Shown: positions 15,938 to 32,094 of the stretch, one piece after another
How positions within the stretch are numbered: the stretch's first letter is position 1
Layout of the letters: each line of letters begins with the position of its first letter
From: Halosegnis longus
Lineage (GTDB): Archaea; Halobacteriota; Halobacteria; Halobacteriales; Haloarculaceae
Direction: 5' to 3'
Assembly (NCBI RefSeq): GCF_009663395.1
Contig: NZ_QKNW01000001.1
Location: 372,001-436,000 of the forward strand
Length of the DNA stretch: 64,000 nt
The notes under the pieces: model-generated
Database searches by the model: none
What the model saw: only the letters and a program-made list of their open reading frames with translations
What the model was told of the DNA's origin: nothing
Program-made: the position numbers and the translations under genes

Positions 15938-18139
<2,202 letters not shown>

Positions 18140-18157
18140 CCCCGCGGCCGCGACCGA

Positions 18158-18163
18158 TTTTTT
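18158..18163 (+). terminator. T-run terminator after katG
   Basis: Six T residues 19 bases after the katG stop, preceded by a GC-rich stretch; poly-T tracts are the usual archaeal intrinsic termination signal. Confidence 0.45.
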
Positions 18164-18262
18164 CGCCGTCGACCCCCGACCGTGAGCGCGGCGAGTCTCG
18201 GGTCGACCGACGCTACGCCCGGCGACCGAACCTGCTTTCTCGCCGGACGGAAACGAGCGCGT

Positions 18263-19375
18263 ATGGACCGACAGCAGCGCGTCGAAGCCTGTCGTCGCGA
18301 GCTCGCGAACGCGGACGCGGCGGCGGCAATCATCTTTCCCAGCATCGACATGGCGTATCTCTCCGGCTTCACCGACGAGCCGATGGAGCGGGTGTTGTTC
18401 CTCATCGTCCCCCGCGAGGGCGACCCGGTCTTCGTCGCCCCGGAGATGTACGACGAACAGATTCGCGACGCCTCGTGGGTCGAAGATATCCGGACGTGGG
18501 GCGACGGCGACGACCCGTACGCGCTCGTCGAGACGGTCGCAGCGGCGTTCGGGTTCGCGGGCGAGCGCATTCTCGTCGACGACCGCATGTGGGCACAGTT
18601 CACGACGGAACTGCGCGAGCGGTTTCCGGACGCGACGTTCGGTCTCGCGAGCGAGGCCGTCGGCCCCCTGCGGCTCCGGAAGGACGACGCCGAACTCGCG
18701 GCGCTGCGGGCTGCGGCGTCAGTTGCCGACGCGGCGAGCGTGGCGGTTCGGTCACTCGGTGGCGACGCGGTCGGGCTGACCGAGCGCGAACTCGCGGCAC
18801 GCATCGAGACGGAACTGACGACTCGCGGCGGGGACGGCGTCTCCTTCGAGCCAATCGTTGCCTCAGGTCCCAACGGCGCGAAGCCCCACCACCGGCACGG
18901 CGACAGAGAAATCGAAGCCGGCGACCCCGTCGTCCTCGATTTCGGAACGCGCGTCGACGGCTATCCGAGCGACCAGACGCGGACCGTCGTCTTCGAGGGG
19001 ACGCCGCCCGAGCCGTTCGAGCAGGTCCACGAAACGGTCCGCGAGGCGTTGGAGGCCGGCGTCGACGCCGTCGAGCCGGGCGTCACCGCACACGAGGTCG
19101 ACGCGGCGGCCCGGCAGGTCATCGAGGACGCCGGCTACGGCGAGCAGTTCATCCACCGGACGGGCCACGGGCTCGGGTTGGAGGTCCACGAACCGCCGTA
19201 CATCGTCGAGGGGAACAACCAGCCGCTCGAACCGGGGATGGTGTTTTCCGTCGAGCCGGGCATCTATCTCGACGGCGAGTTCGGCGTCCGTATCGAGGAT
19301 ATCGTCGCCGTCACCGACGACGGCTGTGAGCGACTGAACGACTCACCGCGCGGCTGGCGAGGAGAAGGCCGGTAG
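18263..19375 (+). CDS. M24-family Xaa-Pro peptidase
   Basis: A 370-aa creatinase-fold metallopeptidase that releases N-terminal residues preceding proline or cleaves X-Pro dipeptides. The five metal ligands are visible: Asp in VVLDFGTRVDG, Asp in YPSDQTRT, His in HRTGHGLGLEVH, Glu in FSVEPGIYLDG and Glu in GVRIEDIV. The N-terminal half (about 1-130) is the non-catalytic creatinase-like domain. The start is ATG 18263 (MDRQQRVEACR); the frame is open to 18182 but the extra residues are not conserved-looking. Cytoplasmic. Confidence 0.9.
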   Translation: MDRQQRVEACRRELANADAAAAIIFPSIDMAYLSGFTDEPMERVLFLIVPREGDPVFVAPEMYDEQIRDASWVEDIRTWGDGDDPYALVETVAAAFGFAGERILVDDRMWAQFTTELRERFPDATFGLASEAVGPLRLRKDDAELAALRAAASVADAASVAVRSLGGDAVGLTERELAARIETELTTRGGDGVSFEPIVASGPNGAKPHHRHGDREIEAGDPVVLDFGTRVDGYPSDQTRTVVFEGTPPEPFEQVHETVREALEAGVDAVEPGVTAHEVDAAARQVIEDAGYGEQFIHRTGHGLGLEVHEPPYIVEGNNQPLEPGMVFSVEPGIYLDGEFGVRIEDIVAVTDDGCERLNDSPRGWRGEGR

Positions 19376-19417
19376 AACGGTTTTGGCCGTCCTAAAAATC
19401 GGAACGTCTTTACTGTT

Positions 19418-19431
19418 TTAGGTAGACCTAA
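19418..19431. promoter_or_regulatory. DtxR-family-type iron box before an unknown operon
   Basis: TTAGGTAGACCTAA is a perfect palindrome with six-base arms around AG. It lies five bases after a TATA-like CTTTAC (19408-19413) and six bases before the ATG at 19437, covering the expected transcription start. The site is the closest of the three in this window to the TTAGGT...ACCTAA form I associate with haloarchaeal SirR/Idr iron regulators. Confidence 0.75.
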
Positions 19432-19436
19432 CCTGC

Positions 19437-19496
19437 ATGGAACGGGAGCGAACGAGCCGTCGACGCCGACAGGACGGAGGGGAGACGGATGAGTGA
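19437..19496 (+). CDS. Possible leaderless mini-ORF (19 aa)
   Basis: ATG 19437 lies 26 bases after the centre of the TATA-like CTTTAC, so it would be at or next to the 5' end of the transcript. The product is MERERTSRRRRQDGGETDE, very basic then acidic. Its TGA overlaps the first codons of the 98-aa gene (ATG 19489), and a GGAGG at 19476-19480 inside it could be that gene's ribosome-binding site. Coding is plausible but unproven. Confidence 0.35.
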   Translation: MERERTSRRRRQDGGETDE

Positions 19497-19785
19497 GTCG
19501 TCGTTACACGCGCTGCGCGACCGCATCGAGACGCTGGCGAGTGAGACGGGAAGCTACTATCTGGTCTGTGCCCGGTGTGGCGACCGACCGGTGCCGGCCG
19601 CGACGCTCAGATTCGAGAGCCGTGCCGTCGCGCGCGTCGCCGCAGACGTGACAGCGCAGTACCGGAGCCGGCTCCGGGAGTACGACCCCGCCTTGCCCCG
19701 CTACGAAATCATCGTCTGTGAGACCGGCCCGGAGACGGGGTCGCGACCGTTCGACGCCGGACTCGCCACCCACTCGGAGGCGTAG
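19489..19785 (+). CDS. Small CxxC protein of unknown function (DUF7552-like)
   Basis: A 98-aa acidic protein with a CARCG zinc- or metal-type knuckle at about residues 25-29 and an ALPRYEIIVCE strand toward the end. I associate this pattern with a haloarchaeal domain of unknown function (DUF7552, from memory). It is the first full gene after the iron box and is followed one base after its stop by the 261-aa gene, so both are in one iron-responsive transcript. A GGAGG lies nine bases upstream. A role in iron limitation is inferred only from the operator. Confidence 0.6.
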   Translation: MSESSLHALRDRIETLASETGSYYLVCARCGDRPVPAATLRFESRAVARVAADVTAQYRSRLREYDPALPRYEIIVCETGPETGSRPFDAGLATHSEA

Positions 19786-19786
19786 G

Positions 19787-20572
19787 ATGGCCGTCGAGAC
19801 TCACATCGACGACGCCATCGAGCGCGCGAGCGACGAGCGCGCTGTTATCGCAGACAAACGGGACGCCATCGCGCAGTTCACGGAACGCGTCGCCGAGCTG
19901 TCGCCGGCGTCGGAGGCGACCGCGACGCCCGCCATCGCGACGACCGGCGGACTGGCCGAGGGAAGCGACGCCGGCGACAGCCGGTGTCGCACGGTCCGAC
20001 AGGCGTTCGCCGAGACGGTGTATCCACACGCGCTCGATGAGATCGAGGGGACGGAGTCGGTCCACGCCGCCATCGGCAACGAACTCTCCGAGGAGTTGGC
20101 CGTCGCGCTCGCGCCGGCGACGGACGCGGCCTTCTCCGCGACGCTGAAGCGTGCACTCGTCAACGAGGCGGAGTCGCGCCGGGCGGAGACAGCCGTGTTG
20201 GTTCGCGCGCTCGGACGCGAGGTCGACCAGCTACAGCGGGCCGAGACGCTCGTCGAGGAGGTGACGGGCTGGATTGACGAGGCGGAGGAGACGCCGCTGA
20301 CCGAACTCGGCTTCGACGCCCTCCACGCGCGCCACGAGCGACTCGCCGACTACCGCGACCGGTGTGAGACCGTCGTCAGCGAGCGGCAGGCGTTTCTCGA
20401 CGGGACGACCAACACCGGCGCGGACGTGGGCGTGAGCCACCGGCTGTTCCCGTCGTATCTGTACCAGTCGTTCCCGGACGAACATCCGGCGCTCGCGACC
20501 GTCGCCCGCCTCGATTCTACCTGTGAATCCTGTCAGCGGGCGGTCCGGGCGCACCTCACCCGGCGAGCGTAG
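19787..20572 (+). CDS. Coiled-coil-like protein of unknown function (DUF7260-like)
   Basis: A 261-aa soluble, Glu/Ala/Arg-rich helical protein. Helical stretches of heptad character run through most of the chain (for example HIDDAIERASDERAVIADKR near 6-25), and it ends with a CESCQRAVRAHL motif carrying two Cys. It resembles the haloarchaeal DUF7260 family, from memory. The ATG is one base after the stop of the 98-aa CxxC protein. With that gene it forms a putatively iron-regulated pair of unknown function; both having CxxC-type knuckles hints at metal or redox chemistry. Confidence 0.6.
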   Translation: MAVETHIDDAIERASDERAVIADKRDAIAQFTERVAELSPASEATATPAIATTGGLAEGSDAGDSRCRTVRQAFAETVYPHALDEIEGTESVHAAIGNELSEELAVALAPATDAAFSATLKRALVNEAESRRAETAVLVRALGREVDQLQRAETLVEEVTGWIDEAEETPLTELGFDALHARHERLADYRDRCETVVSERQAFLDGTTNTGADVGVSHRLFPSYLYQSFPDEHPALATVARLDSTCESCQRAVRAHLTRRA

Positions 20573-20578
20573 CTACTT

Positions 20579-20953
20579 CTATCCCTCGCGTTGAATCAGG
20601 ACGACGAGCACTCCAATCAGGGCGACCTGAATCGCCTTGTCCACGTAGCCGAGCGTGGAGAAGCTCCCCGCGTTAAGAACGTACCACGCGACGATCTGTC
20701 CGAGCGTCCACAGCGCGCCGAGCGCGTAGAGCGGCTGTCGTGGGACGTCAACGTCGAGCGCGAGCACGGCGGCTCCGCCGAGGAAACCGATGCCCGCGAC
20801 GGCGAAGCTGATGCCGTACGTCGAGAGTCCGTACAACGAGACCAGATACAGATGCAGGAGTCCGGTCGCGACCGCGAGCGCGATGCCGGCCCAGTGGACC
20901 GAGGTGAGCGACCCCGCCTGGACGCCCCCACCTGTTGCTTCTCGAGTTCCCAT
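20579..20953 (-). CDS. Four-helix membrane protein (DUF7475-like)
   Basis: A 124-aa integral membrane protein with hydrophobic segments at about 21-40, 45-68, 76-96 and 104-120 and a Gly-rich polar N-terminus. The final residues QREG are cytoplasmic or exposed. The pattern (VHWAGIALAVATGLLHLYLV) is one I associate with a small haloarchaeal family of unknown function. It converges with the 261-aa gene, six bases between stops, and is probably monocistronic. Confidence 0.6.
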   Translation of the reverse strand: MGTREATGGGVQAGSLTSVHWAGIALAVATGLLHLYLVSLYGLSTYGISFAVAGIGFLGGAAVLALDVDVPRQPLYALGALWTLGQIVAWYVLNAGSFSTLGYVDKAIQVALIGVLVVLIQREG

Positions 20954-20980
20954 ACGTCGTGTGAGGGCGTGACACGACTT

Positions 20981-22087
20981 TTAGTTGAGGGTCGCGGAGA
21001 CGTGCTCTCGAATCTCACTGGCGAACCGGTCGCTGGCGAATCGGTCGCGAGAGAGAAACGGCCGGAGGTCGCTGTCGAGTGCCGCGGCGACCGTCTCGGC
21101 CGCGCCCTCGATGCCGTGAAACAGCAGTCGGTCGTCGCCGCCGAGCACGTCGACCTGTCCGCCCTCGTTGGGCGCGAACGGGACCATCCCGGCGGCGGCG
21201 TACTCGGCGACGGCCATCCCGAAATGCTCGGTCGGCTTCATGTTGAGTCCGTAGCGGTAGCGACCGAGCAGCGTCTCGACGCGGTCGCGCGACACGTCGG
21301 TTTCGACGCGGACGCCCTCGCTGCGTGCGGCCGCCGACTCGACCCGGCGGACGTACTCCCGGTAGGCGGTCGGCGCGGAGCCGACGACGCGACAGGTGAG
21401 GTCGTACCCGCGTGCGCGGAGCCGTTCGACCACCTCGATGGCGTTGAGGACGCGCTTGTCCGGCGCGATGCGCCCGAGCACGAGCACGCCGGCGTCGCGG
21501 TCGACCCACGGGCGACCCTCGATTGGGTCGACGGGCGGGTGACACACCGTCGGGCGGACCCCGTAGATGTCGGCCGTCACGTCGGCGGTCCACGCCGAGT
21601 TCGCCAGCAGCCGGGTCGGCCCCTCGAGCTGGCTGCGGTCGGGCGCGGCGAGTCGCGACCAGAGACCGTCGAGTGGCCCAGTTTCCCCGGCGTCGACGCG
21701 GTCGACGTAAAACTGCGGAAAGTGGACGTACTGCACCGACGGCCCTGAGATTGCGAGTTCGTTCGCCGTGCTGACGACGACATCGAACTCGCCGCGGCGA
21801 CGGCGGAGATACGCTCGCAGAAGCACCGACCGGGCGGGGAGTTGGGGGCCGAGACGCGGCGCGGCGCGGTTCAGCCCGGCCGCGAGTGCACGGCTTCCGG
21901 GCGGCGTCGCCACCGTCACGTCGAACGGTACGTCGAACTTCGCGGCCACGCGCTCGGGAGCCGTCGCCGACAGCGTGAACAGCGTCACGTCGTGGACGGC
22001 GTCGAGGGCGGCACAGACGTGGAGACACACCATGTCCGCACCCCCCTCGAAATCGAGCGTGTTGTGGAACACCGCGACCTTCGCCAT
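20981..22087 (-). CDS. Family 4 glycosyltransferase
   Basis: A 368-aa GT-B glycosyltransferase. The N-terminal lobe begins MAKVAVFHNTLDFEGGADMV (acceptor-side loop) and the C-terminal lobe has VLVLGRIAPDKRVLNAIEVV and the E-x7-E nucleotide-sugar motif in EHFGMAVAEYAAAG. The frame is open to 22243, but ATG 22087 is chosen because the fold begins there. It is divergent from the biosynthetic operon at 22170, 82 bases apart. Sugar and acceptor are unknown; ALG11-like members modify lipid-linked sugars, and the nearby CDP-alcohol transferase makes a lipid acceptor conceivable. Confidence 0.85.
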   Translation of the reverse strand: MAKVAVFHNTLDFEGGADMVCLHVCAALDAVHDVTLFTLSATAPERVAAKFDVPFDVTVATPPGSRALAAGLNRAAPRLGPQLPARSVLLRAYLRRRRGEFDVVVSTANELAISGPSVQYVHFPQFYVDRVDAGETGPLDGLWSRLAAPDRSQLEGPTRLLANSAWTADVTADIYGVRPTVCHPPVDPIEGRPWVDRDAGVLVLGRIAPDKRVLNAIEVVERLRARGYDLTCRVVGSAPTAYREYVRRVESAAARSEGVRVETDVSRDRVETLLGRYRYGLNMKPTEHFGMAVAEYAAAGMVPFAPNEGGQVDVLGGDDRLLFHGIEGAAETVAAALDSDLRPFLSRDRFASDRFASEIREHVSATLN

Positions 22088-22169
22088 ACGCCTCGTGGGG
22101 GCGCAGTCGGCTTGAACCCTGTCGCCGGCGGCGACAGTGTATTGGTGAACGCACCCACAGTTTGCGGTA

Positions 22170-24104
22170 GTGAACTGCTTGGTAGTGGGAGCCGGCAGCG
22201 TGGCACGCGAGTACGTCGCCGGCGTCGCGGACACGGACCTCACCGTGACTGGTGTCTGTGACCTCGACCGCGAGCGCGCGAGTGCGCTCGCCGCCGACCT
22301 CGACGCGACCGCCTACACCGACCTCGATGCGATGCTCGCCGCGGAGTCCGCGCCGCTCGTCGTGAATCTCACGAGCCACGAGGCACACGCCCCGGTGACC
22401 CGCACCTGTCTCGACGCGGACCGACACGTCTTCTCGGAGAAGCCGCTGGCGATGGACGCCGCGACCGCAGCCGACCTCGTTTCCCTCGCTCGGGACCGAA
22501 CCCTCGCGCTCGGCTGCGCGCCAGCGAACCCCGCCGGCGACGTGCAGCGACACGCCCGAACGCTGCTGGCCGACGGCCGACTCGGCGACGTGCAGTTCGT
22601 CACCGCGACGGCGAACGTCGGCCGCGTCGGCGCGTGGCACGACCGCCCCGACTCCTTCCTCCGCGTCGGGCCGCTGTACGACGGTGGCGTCTATCCGCTC
22701 ACCCTGCTCGTCGCGTGGTTCGGCCGCGTCGAGCGGGTCCGGCGGGCCGACGCCCTCCCGCTGTGGCCCGGGGACGCCGACCCGGACGAAAGCTACACCG
22801 ACGCGCCACACGTCGAAGCGACCCTCGAGTTCGCCGACGGCCCGACCGTCGCGCTCCGGGCCAGCTTCTACGTCGACCACCGGAGCCGCGAGTTCTACGG
22901 GCTGGAGTGTCACGGCGACGACGGCACCCTGTATCTGGACGACACCGGCGCGCTCGCCGCCGAGGAGTCGGCCGTCACGGTCCGGGGCGGGGACCGTGAG
23001 CCGACGACCGCCCCTCATCCGGTTCCGCGTCGCGAGCAGTCGCGGCTCGAAGCCGTCGAGCGACTGGCCGACTCGGTTCGACAGGGAACCCCGGACCGGA
23101 CGACCGCGTGCCGCGGGGCACACGTCGTCGCGGTGTGTAACGCCGTCGAGGCGGCTGCCGAGACGGGTGGCGGGGAAGCCGTCGAGACCGACGCTCCCGC
23201 GGGAACGTGCCCCAAGCGCGTCTGGCGACCCGAACCCAGCACTGCCGACAGGGCGCTACATCTTCCACCGGTCGGCTTCGGCTGTTCGCGGTATCGCCAC
23301 GGCGACTACGTGACGCCGGCACTCGGCGCGGCCGTCGACGCCGGCTATCGGCTGTTCGACACGGCGGAACTGTACGGCAACGAGTGGCGACTCGGCGACC
23401 TGCTCGCCGACGGTCCGGACCGCGACACCGTCTTCCTGCTCGGGAAGCCGTGGCGCACGAACCACGGCCCCGGTCACCTCGAACGCGCCTGTCGCAGCTC
23501 GCTCGCGGAGCTCGGAGCCGACGCCTTCGACTGCTACGCGCTCCACTGGCCCGGCGCGTGGGAACACACCGGCCCCCTCTCGCAACTCTCGAAGAAGCCG
23601 GTGGCCGAACAGGAGCGGGTGACGTTTCCAACCGACGAGAACGGAGACCCGGCACGCGCGAGCCACACCCTCCTCGATACGTGGCGACGGATGGAGGCTC
23701 TCGTCGACGAGGGGTTGGCCCGGACGCTCGGACTCTGTAATGTGACGCTGCCGCAGTTGGCCGCCGTCGCTGACGAGGCGCGGATTCCGCCCGCTCTCGT
23801 GCAGGTGGAGTCGAATCCGTACGCTCCCCGTCACACCCTCGTCCGGTGGTGTCACCGCCACGGCATCCGCGTCGTCGCTCACTCGCCGCTCTCGACTGCG
23901 CTTCGCGATGACTCGGTCGTCCGGTCCGTCGCCGACAGACACGACATCGCGCCGACGACCGCGCTGTTGGCGTGGCAGGTCCAGCGGGGCGTCGTCCCGA
24001 TTCCGACGACGACCGACCCCGCACACGCGACGGCGAATCTCGCGGCCGCGCGCCACCGACTCGACGAGCAAGGAATGGCACAGTTGGACGGGCTAGTCCG
24101 ATGA
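22170..24104 (+). CDS. Gfo/Idh/MocA oxidoreductase - aldo/keto reductase fusion
   Basis: A 644-aa two-domain protein. Residues 1 to about 340 are a Gfo/Idh/MocA dehydrogenase: NAD(P)-binding VVGAGSVAREY at 5-15 and the family EKP in FSEKPLAMD near 91-99. The usual catalytic Asp-x-x-x-His helix is replaced by GGVYPLTLLVAWF, with no His. Residues of about 365-644 are an aldo/keto reductase with the tetrad Asp and Tyr in FDTAELYGNE, Lys in LLGKPW and His in ALHWPG. So the AKR half looks active, while the MocA half may act on an atypical substrate. First gene of a six-gene overlapping operon; a single polypeptide suggests channelling of two redox steps. Confidence 0.85.
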   Translation: MNCLVVGAGSVAREYVAGVADTDLTVTGVCDLDRERASALAADLDATAYTDLDAMLAAESAPLVVNLTSHEAHAPVTRTCLDADRHVFSEKPLAMDAATAADLVSLARDRTLALGCAPANPAGDVQRHARTLLADGRLGDVQFVTATANVGRVGAWHDRPDSFLRVGPLYDGGVYPLTLLVAWFGRVERVRRADALPLWPGDADPDESYTDAPHVEATLEFADGPTVALRASFYVDHRSREFYGLECHGDDGTLYLDDTGALAAEESAVTVRGGDREPTTAPHPVPRREQSRLEAVERLADSVRQGTPDRTTACRGAHVVAVCNAVEAAAETGGGEAVETDAPAGTCPKRVWRPEPSTADRALHLPPVGFGCSRYRHGDYVTPALGAAVDAGYRLFDTAELYGNEWRLGDLLADGPDRDTVFLLGKPWRTNHGPGHLERACRSSLAELGADAFDCYALHWPGAWEHTGPLSQLSKKPVAEQERVTFPTDENGDPARASHTLLDTWRRMEALVDEGLARTLGLCNVTLPQLAAVADEARIPPALVQVESNPYAPRHTLVRWCHRHGIRVVAHSPLSTALRDDSVVRSVADRHDIAPTTALLAWQVQRGVVPIPTTTDPAHATANLAAARHRLDEQGMAQLDGLVR

Positions 24105-24907
24105 GCGCCGACGCCTTACGCCGGCGCTGGTGGGCCGTCGTCGTCGCGAGCGCGCTCGCGACCGCCGGTGTCGGGGTGCTCGTCGCGCGTGCGCTCTCGC
24201 CAGCCGCGGGGGGACGGTGGCTCGCCGGCGCGCTCGCTCCGGTGGTCTTTCTCGCGTGGTTCCTCCGACGCACGCTCTCGGAGAACCGACCGCCCGAGGA
24301 CGCCCCCGAATCGGGCGTCTATTCCACCCTCGGGGTGGCGAACGGAATCACCGTCGGGCGCGGCTGGCTCTACGCGTGTCTGGGTGGGTTCGTGCTCACC
24401 GTCCCGCCGACCGGGACGGCGTGGCGGTGGCTGCCGGCCGTCGCGTACGGCGTCGGTATCGGGCTCGACTGGGTCGACGGCGCGGCCGCCCGAACCGTGA
24501 GCCGCCGGACGCAGTTGGGCGAGCGACTCGACCTCGCGTTCGATACGATGGGGTTCCTGCTCGCGCCGGTCGTCGGCGTCGTCTGGGGGGCGCTTCCGGT
24601 GTGGTATCTGTCGGTGTCGGCCGCGCGGTATCTGTTCAAGCTCGGCTGCTGGCTCCGGGAGTACCGCGGGCTTCCGGTGGGAGAGCTGCCGGAGAGCCGC
24701 GTCCGACGGCCGCTGGCCGCCCTCCAGATGCTCACCATCGCCGTCGCGCTCGTCCCCCTCGTGCCGGCGAGCGTCGCGTGGCCGCTCGCCACGGGGGCCA
24801 TGATTCCAACGCTCGTGGTGTTCCTCCGCGATTATCTGTCGGTTACTGGACGACGGAACGAAGCAAACGCTAAAGAACGTACACCCGTAACCCGAGTAGA
24901 TGAGTGA
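24101..24907 (+). CDS. CDP-alcohol phosphatidyltransferase family protein
   Basis: A 268-aa membrane enzyme. The catalytic signature is complete: Asp-x2-Asp-Gly in DWVDGAAAR near 126-134, then Gly-x3-Asp-x3-Asp in GERLDLAFD near 143-151. About six hydrophobic helices surround it, beginning with WWAVVVASALATAGVGVL. The enzyme joins an alcohol to a CDP-activated lipid (or the reverse). Start ATG 24101 overlaps the fusion gene's stop (ATGA). Its presence in an operon with GTP cyclohydrolase and reductases is unusual and points to a lipid-linked or membrane-attached product. Confidence 0.85.
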   Translation: MSADALRRRWWAVVVASALATAGVGVLVARALSPAAGGRWLAGALAPVVFLAWFLRRTLSENRPPEDAPESGVYSTLGVANGITVGRGWLYACLGGFVLTVPPTGTAWRWLPAVAYGVGIGLDWVDGAAARTVSRRTQLGERLDLAFDTMGFLLAPVVGVVWGALPVWYLSVSAARYLFKLGCWLREYRGLPVGELPESRVRRPLAALQMLTIAVALVPLVPASVAWPLATGAMIPTLVVFLRDYLSVTGRRNEANAKERTPVTRVDE

Positions 24908-25685
24908 CGTGTCACACCATGGCACCCGGATGGTCGCCCTGCAGATCGACGACTACGGTCCGTGGACGACCACGCCGGAGCCACGACGGGAGACTGACCT
25001 CCAGGCGCTCCAGTCGCGGCTGTTCGCGACCGTCGCCGACTTCTTCGCCCGGTTCGACGGCTACGCCTTCGCCGACCGCTACGACAACATGGTCGGCGTC
25101 GCGAACGGGGCCGACCCGGCCGTCTTCGAACGGCTCCAGACACAGGTCGCGAATCAGTACCCCGTAACGGTAAGCGTCGGCGTCGGCACGGCCGGAACGC
25201 CCCGGACGGCGCTGGAGGCCGCCAACGGCGTCCTCCAGCAGGCCGGCAGCGCACAGGACGCAGACCGGACCGAGGTCCACGACCACCGGGTCGTCGACGA
25301 CGCGACGACGGGGACCGTGACGATTGCCCACTTCGACGTGGTGGACGCGACGGGCACCCTGACCGACCGCGTCTCGTCCGCCGAGGCGGGCCACACCATC
25401 CGCCGCGCCGTGCTCGAACTCCGCGAGCAGATGTGGGAGCGCCACGGCGCGGTCACCCAGTTCGTCGGGGGCGACAACGCCATCGCCGTCTGTCCGTCGC
25501 TGACGCCGTCGAAACTCGACGCCGTCAACGACCACGTGCGCGAGACGACGGGGGTGGAGCTACAGGTCGGTATCGGACGCGGGCCGACCGCCCACGCCGC
25601 CGGCGACGACGCGAAGCACGCACTCGAACACTGCCGCGAGACGGGCGAGCGCATCCACGCCGCGTTCAGCCTCGTCGAACGATGA
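24900..25685 (+). CDS. arfA: GTP cyclohydrolase III (IIa)
   Basis: A 261-aa enzyme that opens the GTP imidazole ring to give 2-amino-5-formylamino-6-ribofuranosylamino-pyrimidinone phosphate (FAPy), the first step of archaeal riboflavin and F420 synthesis. Signatures shared with Methanocaldococcus GCH III are IDDYGPWT, ETDLQALQSRL, DRYDNMVGVANG, GSAQDADRTEV and the polymerase-like FVGGDNAIAV. ATG 24900 overlaps the previous gene by eight bases; a second ATG at 24930 gives an N-terminus closer to the methanogen enzyme. In this operon the FAPy product could feed either flavin synthesis or a separate pterin-like pathway. Confidence 0.92.
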   Translation: MSDVSHHGTRMVALQIDDYGPWTTTPEPRRETDLQALQSRLFATVADFFARFDGYAFADRYDNMVGVANGADPAVFERLQTQVANQYPVTVSVGVGTAGTPRTALEAANGVLQQAGSAQDADRTEVHDHRVVDDATTGTVTIAHFDVVDATGTLTDRVSSAEAGHTIRRAVLELREQMWERHGAVTQFVGGDNAIAVCPSLTPSKLDAVNDHVRETTGVELQVGIGRGPTAHAAGDDAKHALEHCRETGERIHAAFSLVER

Positions 25686-26683
25686 TCGACGCACGCCGAC
25701 TCTACTTCACGGACCCCTGCGAGGTCGAGGTCAGAACCGTCACGCTGGACGCCCCCGACGAGGGCGAAGTCGTCGTCGAGACGACCGAGTCGGGCATCAG
25801 TCCCGGCTCCGAACTGCTCGTCTATCGGGGCGAGTTCCCCGAGGAGACCGCCGTCGACGAAACCATCGAGGCGCTCGCCGGCACCTTCGAGTATCCGCTG
25901 CCGTACGGTTACGCCGCCGTCGGCACCGTCACCGACTGCGGCGCGGGCGTCGACGAGTCGTGGCGCGGGCGCACCGTCTTCGCCTTCGAGCCACACGCAG
26001 ACCGGTTCGTCGCGTCAACCGACACGCTCGTCCCCTTACGCGAGGGAGTTACGCCGACGGAGGCCACCCTGCTCCCGTCGGTGGAGACGGCGACGAATCT
26101 CGTCCTCGACGGGGCACCCCGCGTCGGGGAGGAGGTCGTCGTCTTCGGCGCGGGACTCGTCGGGCTGTGTACCGTCCACATCCTCTCGGAGTTCCCGCTG
26201 TCGGAGCTGACGGTCGTCGAGCCGGTTGACACGCGCCGACGCCTGGCAGCGCAGTTCGGCGCGGACCGAACTATTACACCCGCGGCCGTGGGGAGCGACG
26301 CCGCACCCGCGAATACTGACATGGTGTACGAGCTGTCCGGCCGCCCGACGACGCTCGACGACGCGATCGAGACGGTCGGCTACGACGGGCGCGTCGTCGT
26401 CGGCTCGTGGTACGGGAAGAAACGCGCGCCGATCGACCTGGGCGGGTCGTTCCACCGCGACCGCATCAGCCTCGAATCCAGTCAGGTGAGCACCATCGAC
26501 CCCGACCTCCGGGGGCGGTGGGACCGCGAGCGCCGGTTCGACGTGGCGTTCGACCACCTCCAGACGCTCGACACCGAGCGGCTGTGCGGCGAGGCGTTCG
26601 CCTTCGACGCCGCGGCCGACGCCTACCGGACACTCGCGGACGGCACCGTCGAGCGACCACACGTCACCTTCACCTACCGATGA
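25682..26683 (+). CDS. MDR-family (zinc-less alcohol dehydrogenase-like) oxidoreductase
   Basis: A 333-aa medium-chain dehydrogenase fold. The cofactor-binding motif VVFGAGLVGLCTVHIL is near 156-171 with an acidic residue after the second strand (VVEPVD), favouring NAD. The usual catalytic-zinc Cys is absent: the region reads SGISPGSELLVYRG instead of a GxCGSD form, and no four-Cys structural zinc lobe is present. This resembles the BchC-like branch of MDR enzymes. ATG 25682 overlaps the arfA stop (ATGA). The substrate is unknown, presumably the product of another enzyme in the operon. Confidence 0.8.
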   Translation: MIDARRLYFTDPCEVEVRTVTLDAPDEGEVVVETTESGISPGSELLVYRGEFPEETAVDETIEALAGTFEYPLPYGYAAVGTVTDCGAGVDESWRGRTVFAFEPHADRFVASTDTLVPLREGVTPTEATLLPSVETATNLVLDGAPRVGEEVVVFGAGLVGLCTVHILSEFPLSELTVVEPVDTRRRLAAQFGADRTITPAAVGSDAAPANTDMVYELSGRPTTLDDAIETVGYDGRVVVGSWYGKKRAPIDLGGSFHRDRISLESSQVSTIDPDLRGRWDRERRFDVAFDHLQTLDTERLCGEAFAFDAAADAYRTLADGTVERPHVTFTYR

Positions 26684-27075
26684 CAGCACCAGAACCATAC
26701 ACGCTCACCGTCCGCCGCGAGTTCGTCGCCCAACACTACCTCACCGTTCCCGACCCCGGGCCCGTAGAGGGGGAGCCACACAGCCACGTCTTCACCGCCG
26801 AGGTGGCGTTCGCCGGTCCAGAGCTGGACGAGTACGGCTACCTCGTCGACATCGACGCCGTCGAGGAGCGGCTCGACGCGCTGGAGACCCGCTACCGGGA
26901 CACCCTGCTCAACGACCTCCCCGAGTTCGACGGGCAGAATCCGAGCGTCGAGCGGTTCGCGGCGGCGTTCGGCGACCGACTGGCCGACGACCTCACCGAC
27001 CCGAACCCGACCACGCTCACCGTCCGGCTCTGGGAGGACGACCTCGCGTGGGCGAGCCACGAGCGGAAACTGTGA
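26680..27075 (+). CDS. 6-pyruvoyl-tetrahydropterin synthase-like protein lacking the catalytic Cys
   Basis: A 131-aa T-fold protein of the PTPS/QueD family. Three zinc ligands are visible: His19 in AQHYLTV and His34 and His36 in EPHSHVF. The substrate-side GQNPSVERFA matches the family NPT-x-E motif and the final WEDDLAWA matches the conserved WE strand. The loop between the first His and the HxH, where PTPS and QueD carry the catalytic Cys, has none (VPDPGPVEGE). This suggests altered chemistry as in other Cys-less PTPS subfamilies. ATG 26680 overlaps the previous stop by four bases. A pterin or FAPy-derived substrate is inferred from arfA. Confidence 0.8.
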   Translation: MTAPEPYTLTVRREFVAQHYLTVPDPGPVEGEPHSHVFTAEVAFAGPELDEYGYLVDIDAVEERLDALETRYRDTLLNDLPEFDGQNPSVERFAAAFGDRLADDLTDPNPTTLTVRLWEDDLAWASHERKL

Positions 27076-27872
27076 CCGCCGACGGTCACGACCACGGCAG
27101 ACGCCGCTACCTGACTGCAAAGCACTCTGTCGACAAGCGGGCACGCAACGAACAGGTCCGACAGCGACTGCTCGCTGAACTGCCGGCTACCCCCCGAGTG
27201 GTCGAGTGGGGACCCGGCGTCGGGCTGTCGGTTCCGACGCTGTGCGACTGGACGAATCTCGACGCCTACCACGGTATCGAGGCCGACCCGACGCTGGCGG
27301 CGTTTGCTCGGTCGCTCGTCCCGCGGCTGTTCGCCCGGAGCGGGGAGGACGCCCCCGACGCAGCGTTCACCGTCGGTGACGCGCTCGCGACGCGGACGGA
27401 GCCGTGTGACCTGCTGTACGCACAGTCGTTCTTCGACCTCGTGCCGGTGGAGTCGGCACTCGATGCCGTACGGGAGCGCGTCACCCCCGGCGGCCTCGCG
27501 TACGCGCCCCTCACGTTCGACGGGAAGACGACGTTTTTGCCCCGCCGTCCGAACGACGAGGCGGTACTCGGAGCGTTTCACGACACCATCGACGCGACCG
27601 ACGGCCGGAGTCGGGCGGCGACCACACTTCTCGACGCGCTCGGCGAGCGCGACGCGACGGTGCTGGCCGTCGGGAGCTCTGACTGGGTGGTTCGGCCGCG
27701 CGCGGGCGCGTATCCGGCCGACGAGCGCTACTTCCTGTCGTCGATTCTCGACATCATCGAGGATGCGCTCGGCGGACAGGCGGCCGAGTGGCTCGCGGCG
27801 CGGCGAGAACAGCTTTCCGCCGGACAGCTCACCTACGTCGCGAACAACCACGACGTGCTGTGGCGGCCCTGA
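27072..27872 (+). CDS. Class I SAM-dependent methyltransferase-like protein
   Basis: A 266-aa protein with a Rossmann methyltransferase core: motif I VVEWGPGVGLSVPTL near 48-62, acidic residue after strand 2 in HGIEADPTLAAF, and a later LLYAQSFFDLVP segment. The middle carries a GGLAYAPLTFDG strand in place of motif III. The start GTG 27072 overlaps the PTPS-like stop (GTGA); a longer frame begins at 27048. It is the last gene of the six-gene operon and ends head-to-head with a PAP2 gene (stops adjacent). It would methylate the pathway product; the substrate is unknown. Confidence 0.72.
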   Translation: MTADGHDHGRRRYLTAKHSVDKRARNEQVRQRLLAELPATPRVVEWGPGVGLSVPTLCDWTNLDAYHGIEADPTLAAFARSLVPRLFARSGEDAPDAAFTVGDALATRTEPCDLLYAQSFFDLVPVESALDAVRERVTPGGLAYAPLTFDGKTTFLPRRPNDEAVLGAFHDTIDATDGRSRAATTLLDALGERDATVLAVGSSDWVVRPRAGAYPADERYFLSSILDIIEDALGGQAAEWLAARREQLSAGQLTYVANNHDVLWRP

Positions 27873-28412
27873 TTACCGGTCGGTGAGCGGCGACCACCGA
27901 GCGAGCACGACCCCGGCGAGCGCGACGGCTCCGACGCCGATTGCGACCCCGGCGAACGTATCCGTCAGGTAGTGGGTGCCGAGATAGACGCGGGAGACGG
28001 CGACCAGCAGCGCGAGCGGGGCGACGACCCCGACCGGTAGTTCATCGGAGCGCCACGCCGTGAGCGCGAACACCGTGCCGGCGGCCGCATGACCCGAGGG
28101 AAACGAGGAGGCGACGGCCTCGCCGGTGGTCTGACACACGGGCATCGGGGGGAACGGGCGCGCGACGACCGCCATCAGGGTCGCGACGACGACGCCGGTG
28201 ATGGCGAGGGCGATACCGGCGCGTTCGGTCTCCTCGCGCCAGCCGGCAGCGAAGAAGAGTCCGAGGAAGACGAGCGCCGCGGTCGCGGAGCCGAGTCCCG
28301 TGACCGAGGTGAGCAGTTTCGTCGCCAGCGGCGACCGGAAGTCAGCGAGCAGCAGTGCGGTCTGCGTGTCGAGCGCGAACAGCCAGTCGAGCAGCCTCCC
28401 GAGCGCATCCAT
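27873..28412 (-). CDS. PAP2-family membrane phosphatase
   Basis: A 179-aa integral membrane phosphatase with about five helices. All PAP2 signature parts are present: KxxxxxxRP is degenerate (VARPFPPMP), PSGH in SSFPSGHAAAG, and SR-x5-H-x3-D in SRVYLGTHYLTD. The active site faces outside. Such enzymes dephosphorylate lipid phosphates or polyprenyl diphosphates. It is convergent with the arfA operon, with no base between the stops, so it is not co-transcribed, but a functional link to the lipid-type enzymes there is possible. Confidence 0.88.
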   Translation of the reverse strand: MDALGRLLDWLFALDTQTALLLADFRSPLATKLLTSVTGLGSATAALVFLGLFFAAGWREETERAGIALAITGVVVATLMAVVARPFPPMPVCQTTGEAVASSFPSGHAAAGTVFALTAWRSDELPVGVVAPLALLVAVSRVYLGTHYLTDTFAGVAIGVGAVALAGVVLARWSPLTDR

Positions 28413-28443
28413 CGCCGTACGTATCGAGAGAACGCCGATAGAC

Positions 28444-28908
28444 CTACCGGTGGTCGCTCGCCCGCGCCCGGAGTTCTCGGCTCACGACCCACGCCGCAAG
28501 TAACCAGATACCCACCTCGATGAAGAAGGAGCGACTCCACAGGTAGTACCAGACGAACTCGCCGGGCGGAATCGCGAGGGGCGTCGGCGGCTCGATGAGG
28601 GGCCATCCGAGGAAGTACGCGTCCGTCGGCCGGCCGTTGACGACGATGTGGAGCGCGTCGGCAGCGAGATGCGAGGCCCACCCGACGGCGAGCACGAGCC
28701 ACCGACCCCCGCGGAGCGCGAGGACGACGAACACGGGCGCGAGCAGCGCCGTGTGCCCGACGGTGTGGAACAGGTCCACCAGCCCCGCTGAGGCGAGCGG
28801 CTTGTCCACGAGGTCGGGGAGCGCGGCTCCGATGACGGCGGCGACGACGGAGAGGCCGCGCGCTCGCGCGAGCAGCCACGCAATCACGAGGTGGGTGGCA
28901 AACAGCAC
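28444..28908 (-). CDS. YdjM-like membrane-bound metal-dependent hydrolase
   Basis: A 154-aa membrane protein. Conserved polar residues sit in ATHLVIAWLL, ALPDLVDKPL, FHTVGHTALLAP and SHLAADALH, the His/Asp pattern of the YdjM (LexA-induced) metal-dependent hydrolase family. The start is taken as GTG 28908, seven bases after the stop of the P-loop/DRTGG gene, giving VLFATHL. The frame remains open farther upstream but inside that gene. It ends an apparent three-gene operon with acd; the substrate is unknown. Confidence 0.72.
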   Translation of the reverse strand: MLFATHLVIAWLLARARGLSVVAAVIGAALPDLVDKPLASAGLVDLFHTVGHTALLAPVFVVLALRGGRWLVLAVGWASHLAADALHIVVNGRPTDAYFLGWPLIEPPTPLAIPPGEFVWYYLWSRSFFIEVGIWLLAAWVVSRELRARASDHR

Positions 28909-28915
28909 GACCGTC

Positions 28916-29986
28916 TCAGTCCCCGCCCGTAGTCCCGACGAGCGCGTCCACGTCGGCGTGTGTCTCCAGCAGGTCGCGCACGACGGCGACGGTCTCCTCG
29001 TTCTGCGTTCGGCCGCCGCTGATGATTGTCTCGGCGCGCTCGACCGTCGTGAGCGTGTCGCCCGGGACGGAGAGCACGGGCGTGTTCGACTCCTCGGCCT
29101 TGCCGAGCACCGACCCCGAAGGCTGGTGGCCGCCGGTGAGGACGAGACACCGGACGCTGTTGGCCTCGATGGCCGCCGTTGCGATGTCAGCGCGGTCGCC
29201 CCCGGTGATGACGGCCGTGTCGCGCGACCGCCGGAAGTGCCGGAGCGCGGCCTCGGCACCCATCGCGCCGACGGCGAACCGCTGGACGAGCACGTCTTGG
29301 TTCCCCTCGACGAGCGTGTCGGCACCGAGTTCGTCCGCCAGCTCCGCGACGGTGACGCCAGTCAGTTCGGGGGCGACGGGGAGAATACCGAACACCGGGA
29401 CGTCGCGGGTAGAGAGATACGGCACCACGTCGGACTCGACGGCGTCGTAGGTGGCGTCGTCGACGCGGTTGAACACGACGCCGGCGAGCCGGTCGCCGAT
29501 GTCCTCGATTGCGGCGAGTACGTCGTCGATGTCGCCCGGCTCGGTGTACTCGGCGACGAGCACCACGTCGGCGTCGAGGAGTTCGGCCACTTCTGGGTCG
29601 GTCAGACCGACAACCCCACCTGTACGCACGTTCCCGCCCCCCTCGATGAACATCCGGTCGGTTCCCTCGGCGAGCCCCTTGTACGCCTCGCGGATGCGGT
29701 CGTTGAGCTCCGTGGTGTCCTCGCGGCCGCGGATGGCCCCCTCGATGAACGTGGGCGAGTAGACGACCGGCTCCATCTCGTGCATCTCGGCGTCCGTCCC
29801 GAGGACGGCGCGCGCGAGCATCGGGTCCTCGTCGAGCGTCTTGCCGACGACGCTCTGGAGGCGCGTCCCCTTCGGCTTCATGTAGCCGACCGATTGGCCC
29901 CGGTCGGCGGCGATGCGGGCAAGGGCGACGGTGATCGCGGTCTTGCCGGTGCGTTCGGCTGTTGCTGTGACGAGTAACGGGTTCAT
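28916..29986 (-). CDS. P-loop AAA_26 / DRTGG domain protein (Pta N-terminal-like)
   Basis: A 356-aa protein with two modules. Residues 1 to about 210 form a dethiobiotin-synthetase-like P-loop domain (TATAERTGKTAIT at 7-19, MFIEGGGNVRTGG near 114-126). Residues of about 215-330 are a DRTGG domain. The same pair forms the N-terminal half of long bacterial phosphotransacetylases, without the catalytic Pta domain. ATG 29986 overlaps the acd stop, so it is co-translated with the ADP-forming acetyl-CoA synthetase. A regulatory role on acetyl-CoA/acetate flux is inferred. Confidence 0.82.
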   Translation of the reverse strand: MNPLLVTATAERTGKTAITVALARIAADRGQSVGYMKPKGTRLQSVVGKTLDEDPMLARAVLGTDAEMHEMEPVVYSPTFIEGAIRGREDTTELNDRIREAYKGLAEGTDRMFIEGGGNVRTGGVVGLTDPEVAELLDADVVLVAEYTEPGDIDDVLAAIEDIGDRLAGVVFNRVDDATYDAVESDVVPYLSTRDVPVFGILPVAPELTGVTVAELADELGADTLVEGNQDVLVQRFAVGAMGAEAALRHFRRSRDTAVITGGDRADIATAAIEANSVRCLVLTGGHQPSGSVLGKAEESNTPVLSVPGDTLTTVERAETIISGGRTQNEETVAVVRDLLETHADVDALVGTTGGD

Positions 29987-32094
29987 TGGAGTTGCTCGGG
30001 GTCGACGGTGAGTCGCAGGTCGACGGCCCGGACCCCGTCGGGCGTCGCGACCAGTGGGTTCACGTCCAGTTCCACGATGCTCGGGAAGTCGGCCACCAGC
30101 TGGGAGACGCGCCGAATCGCGTCGACGGTCGCGTCCAGATCGACGGGCGTGCGACCGCGCGCGCCGCGCAACAGCGGCGCGGCGTCGATGTCGGCGGTCA
30201 TCTGTTCGGCCTCGCCCGCGGCGACCGGCGCGAGCCGGAAGGTGGTGTCTTCGAGCACCTCCACGAAGACGCCGCCCAGCCCGAACATGACGAGCGGGCC
30301 GAACTGCGGGTCGCGGTGGCTCCCGACGATTGTCTCGACCCCGTCGTCGAGGTCGAGCATCTCCTGCACCTGCACGCCGAGAATCCGGGCGTCCGGCTGG
30401 TAGCTCCTCGCGCGGCTCACCAAATCCTCGTACGTGTCCGCAACGTCGGCGGCCGAGACGCCGACCCTGACGCCGCCGATGTCGGACTTGTGGAGGATAT
30501 CCGGCGAGACGATTTTCATCACCACGTCGCCGTCGATGCGAGCAGCGACCTCGGCGGCGGCGGTCGGGTCGTCCACGACCTCGCCCTCCGGCGTGGGAAT
30601 CCCGTAGGCGTCGAACAGCTCCATCGCCTCGACGCCGAGACGGTTGTCGCCCCGCTCTTCCACCTGCGAGAGAATCTCGCGGACGCGCTCGCGGTCGGCG
30701 TCGATTGGTTCGGGGGCCTCGTAGCGTCGCCCCCGGATGTCGCGGTACTCGGCGAGCGCCTCCAGTCCGGCGACCGCGCGGGCGGGGTCGAAGTAGGAGG
30801 GAATCGACCGCTCGCGAAAGGTCTCGCGGGCGGGCGCGAGCGTCTCGCCGCCCATCAGACAGACGGCGACCGGCACGTCGTGGGCTGTCGCGGTGTCGGC
30901 GACTGCGTCACCGAGCGCAGCGAAGTCCAGCGTAGCGGTCGGGGCGGTGATGACGACCGCCGACCCAACGTCGCCGTCTGCGAGGGTCGTGTCGAGGGCG
31001 GTCTGGAGTCGGCCGACGTCGGCGTCACCGATTACGTCGACCGGATTGTACACGTTCGCCTCAGCGGGCATCGTCCCCTGCAGGTCGGAGATGGTCGCGT
31101 CGGAGAAGGAGGCGAGCCGGAGGCGGTCGGCGTCGCCGACGGCGTCGGTCGCCATCACGCCCGGACCGCCGGCGTTGGTGACGACGGCCACGCCGTCGGA
31201 GTCGGGAACGAGGCCGCCGGCGAGCGCGCGGGCGCTGTCGAACAGCTCCTGCACGGAAGTCGCACGGAGCACGCCCGCCGCGTCCAGTCCGGCCTCGTAG
31301 GCGCTGTCCGCGCCGGCAATCGCACCCGTGTGTGAGGAGGCGGCCTGCGCGCCGGCGTCGGTCCGGCCCGACTTCACAACGACGACCGGGGTGTCGGGCG
31401 TCGTCTCGCGGGCCGCCGCCACGAAGCCCCGCCCGTCGACGACGCTCTCCAGGTAGCCGACGATAACGTCCGTGTCGGAGTCGTCTCCCCACGCCCGGAC
31501 GAAGTCCGTCTCGTCGAGGACGCTCTTGTTGCCCAGCGAGACGATATCGTTGAAGCCGAGACCCGCTTCGAGCGCCCAGTCGACGACGGCGGTGACGAAC
31601 GCGCCCGACTGGCTCATGAACGAGACGTTGCCCGCGGGCGGAAGCGCCGGGCCGAAGGTGGCGTTCATCGACAGCGAGGTCGCCATCACGCCGAGGCTGT
31701 TGGGGCCGACGAGCGCCATGTCGTAGGCTTCGGCCGTCTCCCGGAGGTCACGTTCGCGGGCCGCACCGTCGGCTCCTGTTTCGCCGAAGCCGGCCGTCAG
31801 GACGACGACGTTGTCGACGCCGGCCTCGCCACACTCCTCGATAACGTCGAGCACGTAGTCGGGCGGGACGGCGACGACGGCCACGTCGGCGTCCGCCTCG
31901 GCGACGCCATCGAGACACGGCTCGCCGAGCACCGTCTCGCGGCGCGGATTCACCGGGAGCGTGGTGCCGGCGTAGCTGTCGAGGAGATTCTCGGTGACGG
32001 CTCTGCCGACGGACCCCTCGCGTTCCGTCGCGCCGACGACGGCGACGCGGTCGGGGTCGAACAGCCCGGCAACGTCGGCCGACCCCTCGGTCAT
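29983..32094 (-). CDS. acd: Acetate--CoA ligase (ADP-forming), fused alpha-beta
   Basis: A 703-aa enzyme that converts acyl-CoA, ADP and phosphate to acid, ATP and CoA, the archaeal route of acetate formation and substrate-level phosphorylation. The order is CoA-binding domain (VAVVGATEREGSVGRAV), ligase domain with the phospho-His in SSHTGAIAGAD near 255, then a C-terminal ATP-grasp with MKIVSPDILHKSDIGGV. Haloarchaeal enzymes carry this fused form. ATG 32094 is chosen; the frame opens to 32175 without conserved sequence. It heads the operon with the P-loop/DRTGG and YdjM-like genes. Confidence 0.92.
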   Translation of the reverse strand: MTEGSADVAGLFDPDRVAVVGATEREGSVGRAVTENLLDSYAGTTLPVNPRRETVLGEPCLDGVAEADADVAVVAVPPDYVLDVIEECGEAGVDNVVVLTAGFGETGADGAARERDLRETAEAYDMALVGPNSLGVMATSLSMNATFGPALPPAGNVSFMSQSGAFVTAVVDWALEAGLGFNDIVSLGNKSVLDETDFVRAWGDDSDTDVIVGYLESVVDGRGFVAAARETTPDTPVVVVKSGRTDAGAQAASSHTGAIAGADSAYEAGLDAAGVLRATSVQELFDSARALAGGLVPDSDGVAVVTNAGGPGVMATDAVGDADRLRLASFSDATISDLQGTMPAEANVYNPVDVIGDADVGRLQTALDTTLADGDVGSAVVITAPTATLDFAALGDAVADTATAHDVPVAVCLMGGETLAPARETFRERSIPSYFDPARAVAGLEALAEYRDIRGRRYEAPEPIDADRERVREILSQVEERGDNRLGVEAMELFDAYGIPTPEGEVVDDPTAAAEVAARIDGDVVMKIVSPDILHKSDIGGVRVGVSAADVADTYEDLVSRARSYQPDARILGVQVQEMLDLDDGVETIVGSHRDPQFGPLVMFGLGGVFVEVLEDTTFRLAPVAAGEAEQMTADIDAAPLLRGARGRTPVDLDATVDAIRRVSQLVADFPSIVELDVNPLVATPDGVRAVDLRLTVDPEQLQ

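Follow-up and report, generated by a model that had tools for sequence, protein, structure and literature searches.

Several described systems share parts with the operon reported here, a run of six genes that includes a GTP cyclohydrolase III (GCH III) and lies on the plus strand at positions 22170–27872 of a 64,000-nucleotide stretch of the haloarchaeon Halosegnis longus (contig NZ_QKNW01000001.1, positions 372,001 to 436,000; hereafter the window). The archaeal trunk of riboflavin and F420 synthesis (ArfA, ArfB, ArfC) draws on the same GCH III, deformylase and RibD_C reductase families, but the gene set considered here, which we call the module, is without ribB, ribH and cof genes, brings a second GCH III copy and adds an MDR dehydrogenase, a PTPS-fold protein, a methyltransferase, a GT4 glycosyltransferase and a CDP-alcohol phosphotransferase (CDP-AT). 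QueD and the PTPS-I enzymes of archaeosine and queuosine synthesis resemble the operon's PTPS in fold, zinc-type histidines and ring-binding glutamate; unlike them it has glutamate for the catalytic cysteine, there is no QueC or QueE in the cluster, and QueD is encoded separately in the genome. Groups PTPS-I to -III were defined in PMC5041015, which in the passages covered describes no group like this protein.

A further relative is the Streptomyces cluster of SCO6650 (a PTPS, structure 3D7J) and SCO6655 (GTP cyclohydrolase II, GCH II). Its S. fungicidicus representative (L065) has homologous MDR, PTPS, GT4, methyltransferase and CDP-AT genes in comparable order, but uses GCH II instead of GCH III, has HGA instead of HSH in its PTPS, includes creatininase and PF03706 genes, and lacks the oxidoreductase fusion found in the window. 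In the window, MDR and PTPS are adjacent, accompanied by GT4 and methyltransferase and with CDP-AT as a neighbour, whereas the cyclohydrolase is not GCH II and no creatininase or RibD_C gene lies in the cluster. The 3D7J protein evidently stems from such a cluster; the five-gene spacing from PTPS to GCH II in L065 would fit the SCO numbering. Since the structure was deposited as 'uncharacterized protein SCO6650', the bacterial cluster had already been noticed. Our literature searches, made with partial access, found no paper on the SCO6650/SCO6655 cluster and no product assigned to it; within the same access the haloarchaeal form, the exchange of GCH II and GCH III, the occurrence in several phyla and the correlation of residues described below appear to be new.

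Judging from gene families and gene order, the operon is an archaeal counterpart of a cluster that occurs in bacteria and archaea alike, one that seems to convert GTP, by none of the established vitamin and cofactor routes, into a probably sugar-bearing and perhaps lipid-linked compound. The operon very probably serves a dedicated pathway distinct from riboflavin synthesis, and we favour the view that haloarchaea have here their own form of a widespread pathway, so far undescribed, that would leave the riboflavin/F420 trunk at a diaminopyrimidine nucleotide.

Genes of the operon and their counterparts in the genome

The open reading frames and junctions confirm six plus-strand genes that overlap at every junction, as the preliminary description of this DNA had stated, and its family assignments agree with Pfam and NCBIfam or, for the methyltransferase, with predicted fold and profile matches. 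Gene A (22170..24104, 644 aa) is a Gfo/Idh/MocA oxidoreductase fused to an aldo-keto reductase (AKR; GFO_IDH_MocA 3e-19, Aldo_ket_red 4e-40). The membrane CDP-AT encoded by gene B (24101..24907; CDP-OH_P_transf, 9e-14) keeps the catalytic motif D-x2-DG-x2-AR-x8-G-x3-D-x3-D in invariant alignment columns, as do PgsA, PssA and cholinephosphotransferase, although its matches to these are weak and partial; its predicted structure was poor (pLDDT 65) and was set aside. Gene C (24900..25685), the genome's second GCH III, matches GCH_III (PF05165) over its full length (E 2e-90), passes the NCBIfam cut-off for GTP cyclohydrolase IIa, keeps 60 of 66 conserved positions in comparison with M. jannaschii MJ0145 (2QV6; T5, N11, R79, L120, L176 and F178 differ), and retains the GGDN, RYDN and QIDxYGPW motifs of that enzyme.

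The two core genes of the module follow. Gene D (25682..26683) is a zinc-less MDR similar to polyol dehydrogenases; its nearest NCBIfam model is BchC, likewise a zinc-less MDR (6e-20), but it scores 72 against a cut-off of 291 and stands with no bacteriochlorophyll genes. Gene E (26680..27075) belongs to the PTPS fold (COG0720; PF01242, 7e-25), reaches 35 bits against the TIGR03367 (QueD) cut-off of 89, and has 3D7J as its best PDB match. It was rightly called Cys-less, as the pattern CxxxHGH is absent, while the zinc-type histidines are kept as AQH...HSH. Gene F (27072..27872) matched nothing in Pfam; it is, however, predicted to fold as a class I SAM methyltransferase (pLDDT 91; 3mgg, E 6e-13), and its profile matches bacterial methyltransferases. 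Overlaps are ATGA (4 bp) at A/B, C/D and D/E and 8 bp at B/C; at E/F the overlap is GTGA (4 bp) with GTG 27072 as the start codon of gene F, the probable case, or 28 bp with the alternative GTG 27048. A putative promoter-like stretch was seen 5' of 24900. No RNA element was found by Rfam in 18000–32000, and repeats are GC-rich background.

Elsewhere in the genome we found a conserved second GCH III gene (C1:137986), for which the preliminary description had proposed a search, and the operon GCH III is hence an extra copy. Being neither the sole nor the conserved copy, it does not qualify as the housekeeping riboflavin ArfA. In the GCH III tree the C1:137986 copy groups with its genus, and the window copy sits on a long branch within a clade that evolves fast and whose genes are mostly linked to the module. 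The genome also has a single RibD_C reductase (ArfC type) and two creatininase-family genes, all outside the operon. The place of the rib genes missing from the operon is taken by these genes in the window genome, and in bacteria by RibD_C and creatininase genes of the cluster. There are two PTPS genes, gene E and a canonical QueD (CARPHGH) beside queE, and three CDP-alcohol transferases. A CDP-alcohol transferase gene distinct from gene B was noted just left of the window (C1:370832-371260, about 25 kb from gene B). As diaminopyrimidine and archaeosine synthesis have their housekeeping genes elsewhere, the operon genes represent extra copies or extra activities. At two other loci (L045:5342-6061 and L057:2299-2898) a creatininase-family gene, 65% identical to L160 of the window genome, and a RibD_C gene were seen a few kb or less from housekeeping GCH III genes, consistent with arfB/arfC linkage.

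Occurrence across Halobacteria and bacteria

Co-conservation across haloarchaea, on which the preliminary description had staked its proposal, is borne out, as is its statement that part of the gene order recurs. In a survey of 146 Halobacteria genomes, in which several families and about 40 genera show the module pattern, 142 had GCH III, 89 the module PTPS and 87 the module MDR. Both occur together in 87, PTPS stands alone in 2 and MDR in none (Fisher 1e-38, kinship ignored); the two genes are mostly adjacent, and in 80 of the 87 they are no more than 6 kb apart. In 32 genomes a GCH III among the matches listed is no farther than 6 kb from the module PTPS, and where two GCH III genes are listed, one is within that distance in 14 of 15.

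Around the haloarchaeal MDR–PTPS pair the recurrent genes are GT4, methyltransferase, the Gfo/Idh–AKR fusion (as in gene A also in L007, L010, L011, L021, L031, L036, L064 and others), CDP-AT, DUF7475, PAP2 and a sulfatase-like protein. Haloarcula halophila has every gene in the order seen in the window, with GT4 again divergent. This gene, at 20981..22087 on the minus strand in the window (ATG at 22087), is placed divergently also in H. pelagica and G050; MDR, PTPS and methyltransferase are contiguous in the window, whereas other haloarchaea have MDR, PTPS, GT4 and methyltransferase contiguous. GT4 belongs to the module core. A creatininase gene lies inside the cluster in Haloarcula marismortui, on whose plasmid pHMA411 the module PTPS was matched in two unannotated pieces (L167:10074-10385; H48, H49) and is possibly frameshifted in this strain. 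A weakly sulfatase/alkaline-phosphatase-like protein (family f8) was seen in six haloarchaeal modules (L010:12659-13555, L011:12670-13551 and others), and 20 bacterial loci have a sulfatase gene.

One genus (g6) separates GCH III from riboflavin synthesis. All four of its sampled species (G080, G090, G141, G050) have a bacterial-type GCH II; the module and GCH III are both missing from G080, G090 and G141, and the GCH III of G050 is found solely inside its module (L064). In this one genus GCH III tracks the module and not riboflavin synthesis, which argues against a riboflavin role. A haloarchaeal genome that is 99% complete (G044) has module PTPS, MDR and a RibD_C gene, and neither GCH III nor GCH II was found in it, reflecting either an assembly gap or another enzyme.

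Outside Halobacteria, searches of plasmid proteins found the MDR–PTPS pair in Streptomyces, Rhizobium, Peteryoungia, Methylosinus, Palleronia, Thiodictyon and Microbacterium, adjoining various of GT4, methyltransferase, CDP-AT, RibD_C, creatininase and GCH II, which replaces GCH III. A scan of genome contigs added 80 loci in Actinomycetota, Alpha-, Beta- and Gammaproteobacteria, Gemmatimonadota and Myxococcota, most commonly ordered as divergent CDP-AT, MDR, PTPS, GT4, methyltransferase, PF03706 membrane protein, then RibD_C and/or creatininase with GCH II. Among the 92 plasmid and genome loci, mostly bacterial, MDR occurs in 89 and PTPS in 86, numbers set by selection as the loci were retrieved by these two genes; the other partners, free of this selection, are GT4 (83), CDP-AT (74), methyltransferase (70), PF03706 (62), GCH II (55), creatininase (47) and RibD_C (40). 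Streptomyces NBC_00019, with PTPS alone in the stretch examined, and Rhodococcus opacus pCP135, with MDR beside a DegT aminotransferase only, were not counted as clusters. A cytochrome b561-like gene stands beside the cluster on two Rhizobiaceae plasmids and one Chromatiaceae plasmid (L068:12988-13527, L074, L073).

Archaeal and bacterial members of the cluster are clearly related protein by protein. Identity is about 33–37% for MDR (about 33–35% for gene D against bacterial cluster members, with many invariant columns) and about 33% for GT4; gene B matches the bacterial CDP-AT (hhalign 99.6%, E 3e-24), and the methyltransferase profiles match at E 1e-24. In the MDR tree the sampled archaeal sequences form one side of a single branch opposite the bacterial ones. 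In the same phylum as Halobacteria but outside that class, the set with GCH II, MDR, PTPS and GT4 occurs in L173 (with creatininase) and L176, and the MDR–PTPS pair alone in L174 and L175.

Branch point, product and competing explanations

Cluster GCH II enzymes vary at one residue. Tyr105 of E. coli GCH II aligns with Met120 of the S. fungicidicus cluster enzyme; with a creatininase gene nearby, 40 of 43 have Met or His there, and without one 10 of 11 have Tyr (Fisher 1e-7, kinship ignored). According to work by Spoonamore and Bandarian (2006–2008), SCO6655, with Met at this position, reportedly stops at the formylated product FAPy, and Tyr restores the full reaction. The creatininase-family enzyme BrbF deformylates such a FAPy-type product (PMC9478397). 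Clusters with Tyr-type GCH II, which is expected to release the deformylated diaminopyrimidine directly, are mostly without creatininase, which makes the deformylated 2,5-diamino-6-ribosylamino-pyrimidinone phosphate the probable branch point. FAPy, from which the preliminary description let the pathway start, would probably be an intermediate only. The simplest reading is that three routes converge on the deformylated product: Tyr-type GCH II alone, Met- or His-type GCH II with creatininase, and GCH III with a deformylase. The presence of RibD_C in 40 loci suggests the ribitylamino form as the next intermediate.

Gene content, conservation across domains, the exchange of GCH II and GCH III, co-occurrence and the residue correlation are observed here, and from these and the enzyme families we infer the chemistry, the product and its attachment. 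The proposed pathway would begin with the dedicated GCH III, predicted from its family activity and intact catalytic motifs to open GTP to FAPy. A creatininase-family deformylase (ArfB type) would then give 2,5-diamino-6-ribosylamino-pyrimidinone 5'-phosphate, and a RibD_C reductase (ArfC type) the 6-ribitylamino-pyrimidinone 5'-phosphate, as cluster content and enzyme families suggest; both would be supplied from within the cluster in many bacteria and from elsewhere in the genome of the window. The weakest step comes next: the polyol-dehydrogenase-like MDR may oxidise the side chain, and the Cys-less PTPS, with its ring-binding Glu (and, in archaea, zinc-type His), may bind the 2-amino-4-oxopyrimidine and close or rearrange it, perhaps to a pterin-like ring. 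This would be chemically sensible, as a ribityl chain oxidised at the position beside the amine would yield the ketone that GCH I produces by rearrangement, and ring closure would lead to a pterin. The methyltransferase would methylate and GT4 glycosylate the compound, the haloarchaeal Gfo/Idh–AKR fusion may adjust the sugar or polyol, and the membrane CDP-AT would link the product by a phosphodiester, its simplest partner being CDP-archaeol, or CDP-diacylglycerol in bacteria, where the PF03706 protein may move the lipid-linked product.

GT4, methyltransferase and CDP-AT together suggest that the product carries sugar and methyl groups and is linked through a phosphodiester, possibly to archaeol. 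Attachment to lipid, already suggested in the preliminary description, is strengthened by the frequency of CDP-AT in the mostly bacterial loci, and we give it an even chance. The pterin nature of the product, also suggested there, is plausible but somewhat doubtful. The full picture, in which bacteria and archaea share a class of membrane lipids whose glycosylated, methylated pyrimidine or pterin head group is made from GTP without GTP cyclohydrolase I, the sugar being reduced to ribitol and re-oxidised by MDR before a Cys-less PTPS-fold protein closes the ring, is speculative and unlikely to hold in every part.

The same early steps might instead lead to a soluble, exported glycosylated pterin or pyrimidine (a pigment, UV screen, signal or antibiotic), with CDP-AT making a polyol phosphodiester and no lipid involved. 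The place of GT4 in the core, the occurrence of clusters in antibiotic-rich genera and on plasmids, the lack of CDP-AT at some loci (for example Palleronia L066 and Rhodobacteraceae L076) and the generic, weak profile matches of CDP-AT all fit such a product; however, few partners are as constant as CDP-AT, whose gene in the window operon overlaps those on either side, and the PF03706 protein that so often goes with the cluster is a membrane protein. We regard a soluble product as a minor but serious contender. GCH III yields FAPy, as Met-type GCH II (SCO6655) reportedly does, and FAPy could itself be the precursor, leaving creatininase another role; this is improbable given that Tyr-type clusters mostly do without creatininase, as expected if routes meet at the deformylated product, and that BrbF acts on this very substrate.

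A second arfA could merely boost riboflavin/F420 supply beside unrelated neighbours, as deletion of HVO_1284 causes riboflavin auxotrophy (PMC8305020) and in many module genomes riboflavin synthesis must depend on the only GCH III present. We reject a plain boost as very improbable: in G050, whose genus has GCH II, GCH III is confined to the module, and MDR, PTPS, GT4, methyltransferase and CDP-AT have no riboflavin role and yet are co-conserved across domains. A known pterin route (tetrahydrobiopterin (BH4), folate/methanopterin or archaeosine) with a divergent PTPS has in its favour that gene E falls in PF01242 and keeps the His and Glu ligands. The PTPS enzymes of those routes take dihydroneopterin triphosphate from GCH I/MptA-type enzymes, whereas the module carries GCH II or III; gene E lacks the catalytic Cys and is below the QueD cut-off, and the canonical QueD sits elsewhere in the genome. 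A canonical QueD, BH4 or folate role was rejected on these grounds and is hardly credible.

The dedicated GTP-derived pathway of the preliminary description is thus supported by haloarchaeal gene order, the second GCH III and recurrence in bacteria and other archaea; it is not an archaeal pathway as such, since GCH II takes the place of GCH III in bacteria. Several observations weigh against our preferred reading of a pathway branching from the riboflavin/F420 trunk. No listed GCH III lies within 6 kb of PTPS in 57 of the 89 module genomes, so GCH III must often be shared with riboflavin synthesis. Module GCH III genes are not one clade in the tree and must have been recruited more than once or exchanged. 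CDP-AT, the Gfo/Idh–AKR fusion and methyltransferase are each absent from some loci, and the window operon itself is without RibD_C and creatininase. Bacterial PTPS proteins lack one His of HGH (HGA), and the binding mode may therefore differ between domains. Finally, many Met-type GCH II sequences come from Streptomyces relatives and are not independent, and four clusters (L103, L104, L127 and the archaeal L173) combine creatininase with Tyr-type GCH II, so that the deformylase link is not strict.

Flanking genes and significance

Next to the divergent GT4 gene is a DUF7475 membrane protein gene (20579..20953, minus strand), a recurrent neighbour seen in 13 haloarchaeal loci. On the other side a convergent PAP2 phosphatase gene (27873..28412, minus strand), which recurs in several haloarchaeal loci and in Haloarcula, is followed by a YdjM-like membrane protein gene (family f12; 28444..28911, minus strand, start approximate) that is paired with PAP2 in several modules.

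If the proposal is true, orphan genes of many bacteria and of most haloarchaeal families would be joined in one pathway, with GCH II and GCH III replacing each other between domains in a single role, and there would be a purpose for the unusual Streptomyces GTP cyclohydrolase II that retains the formyl group. Many cluster genes now annotated as '6-carboxytetrahydropterin synthase' or 'GTP cyclohydrolase IIa/II, riboflavin' are likely misnamed, and a new GTP-derived small molecule or lipid would be predicted.

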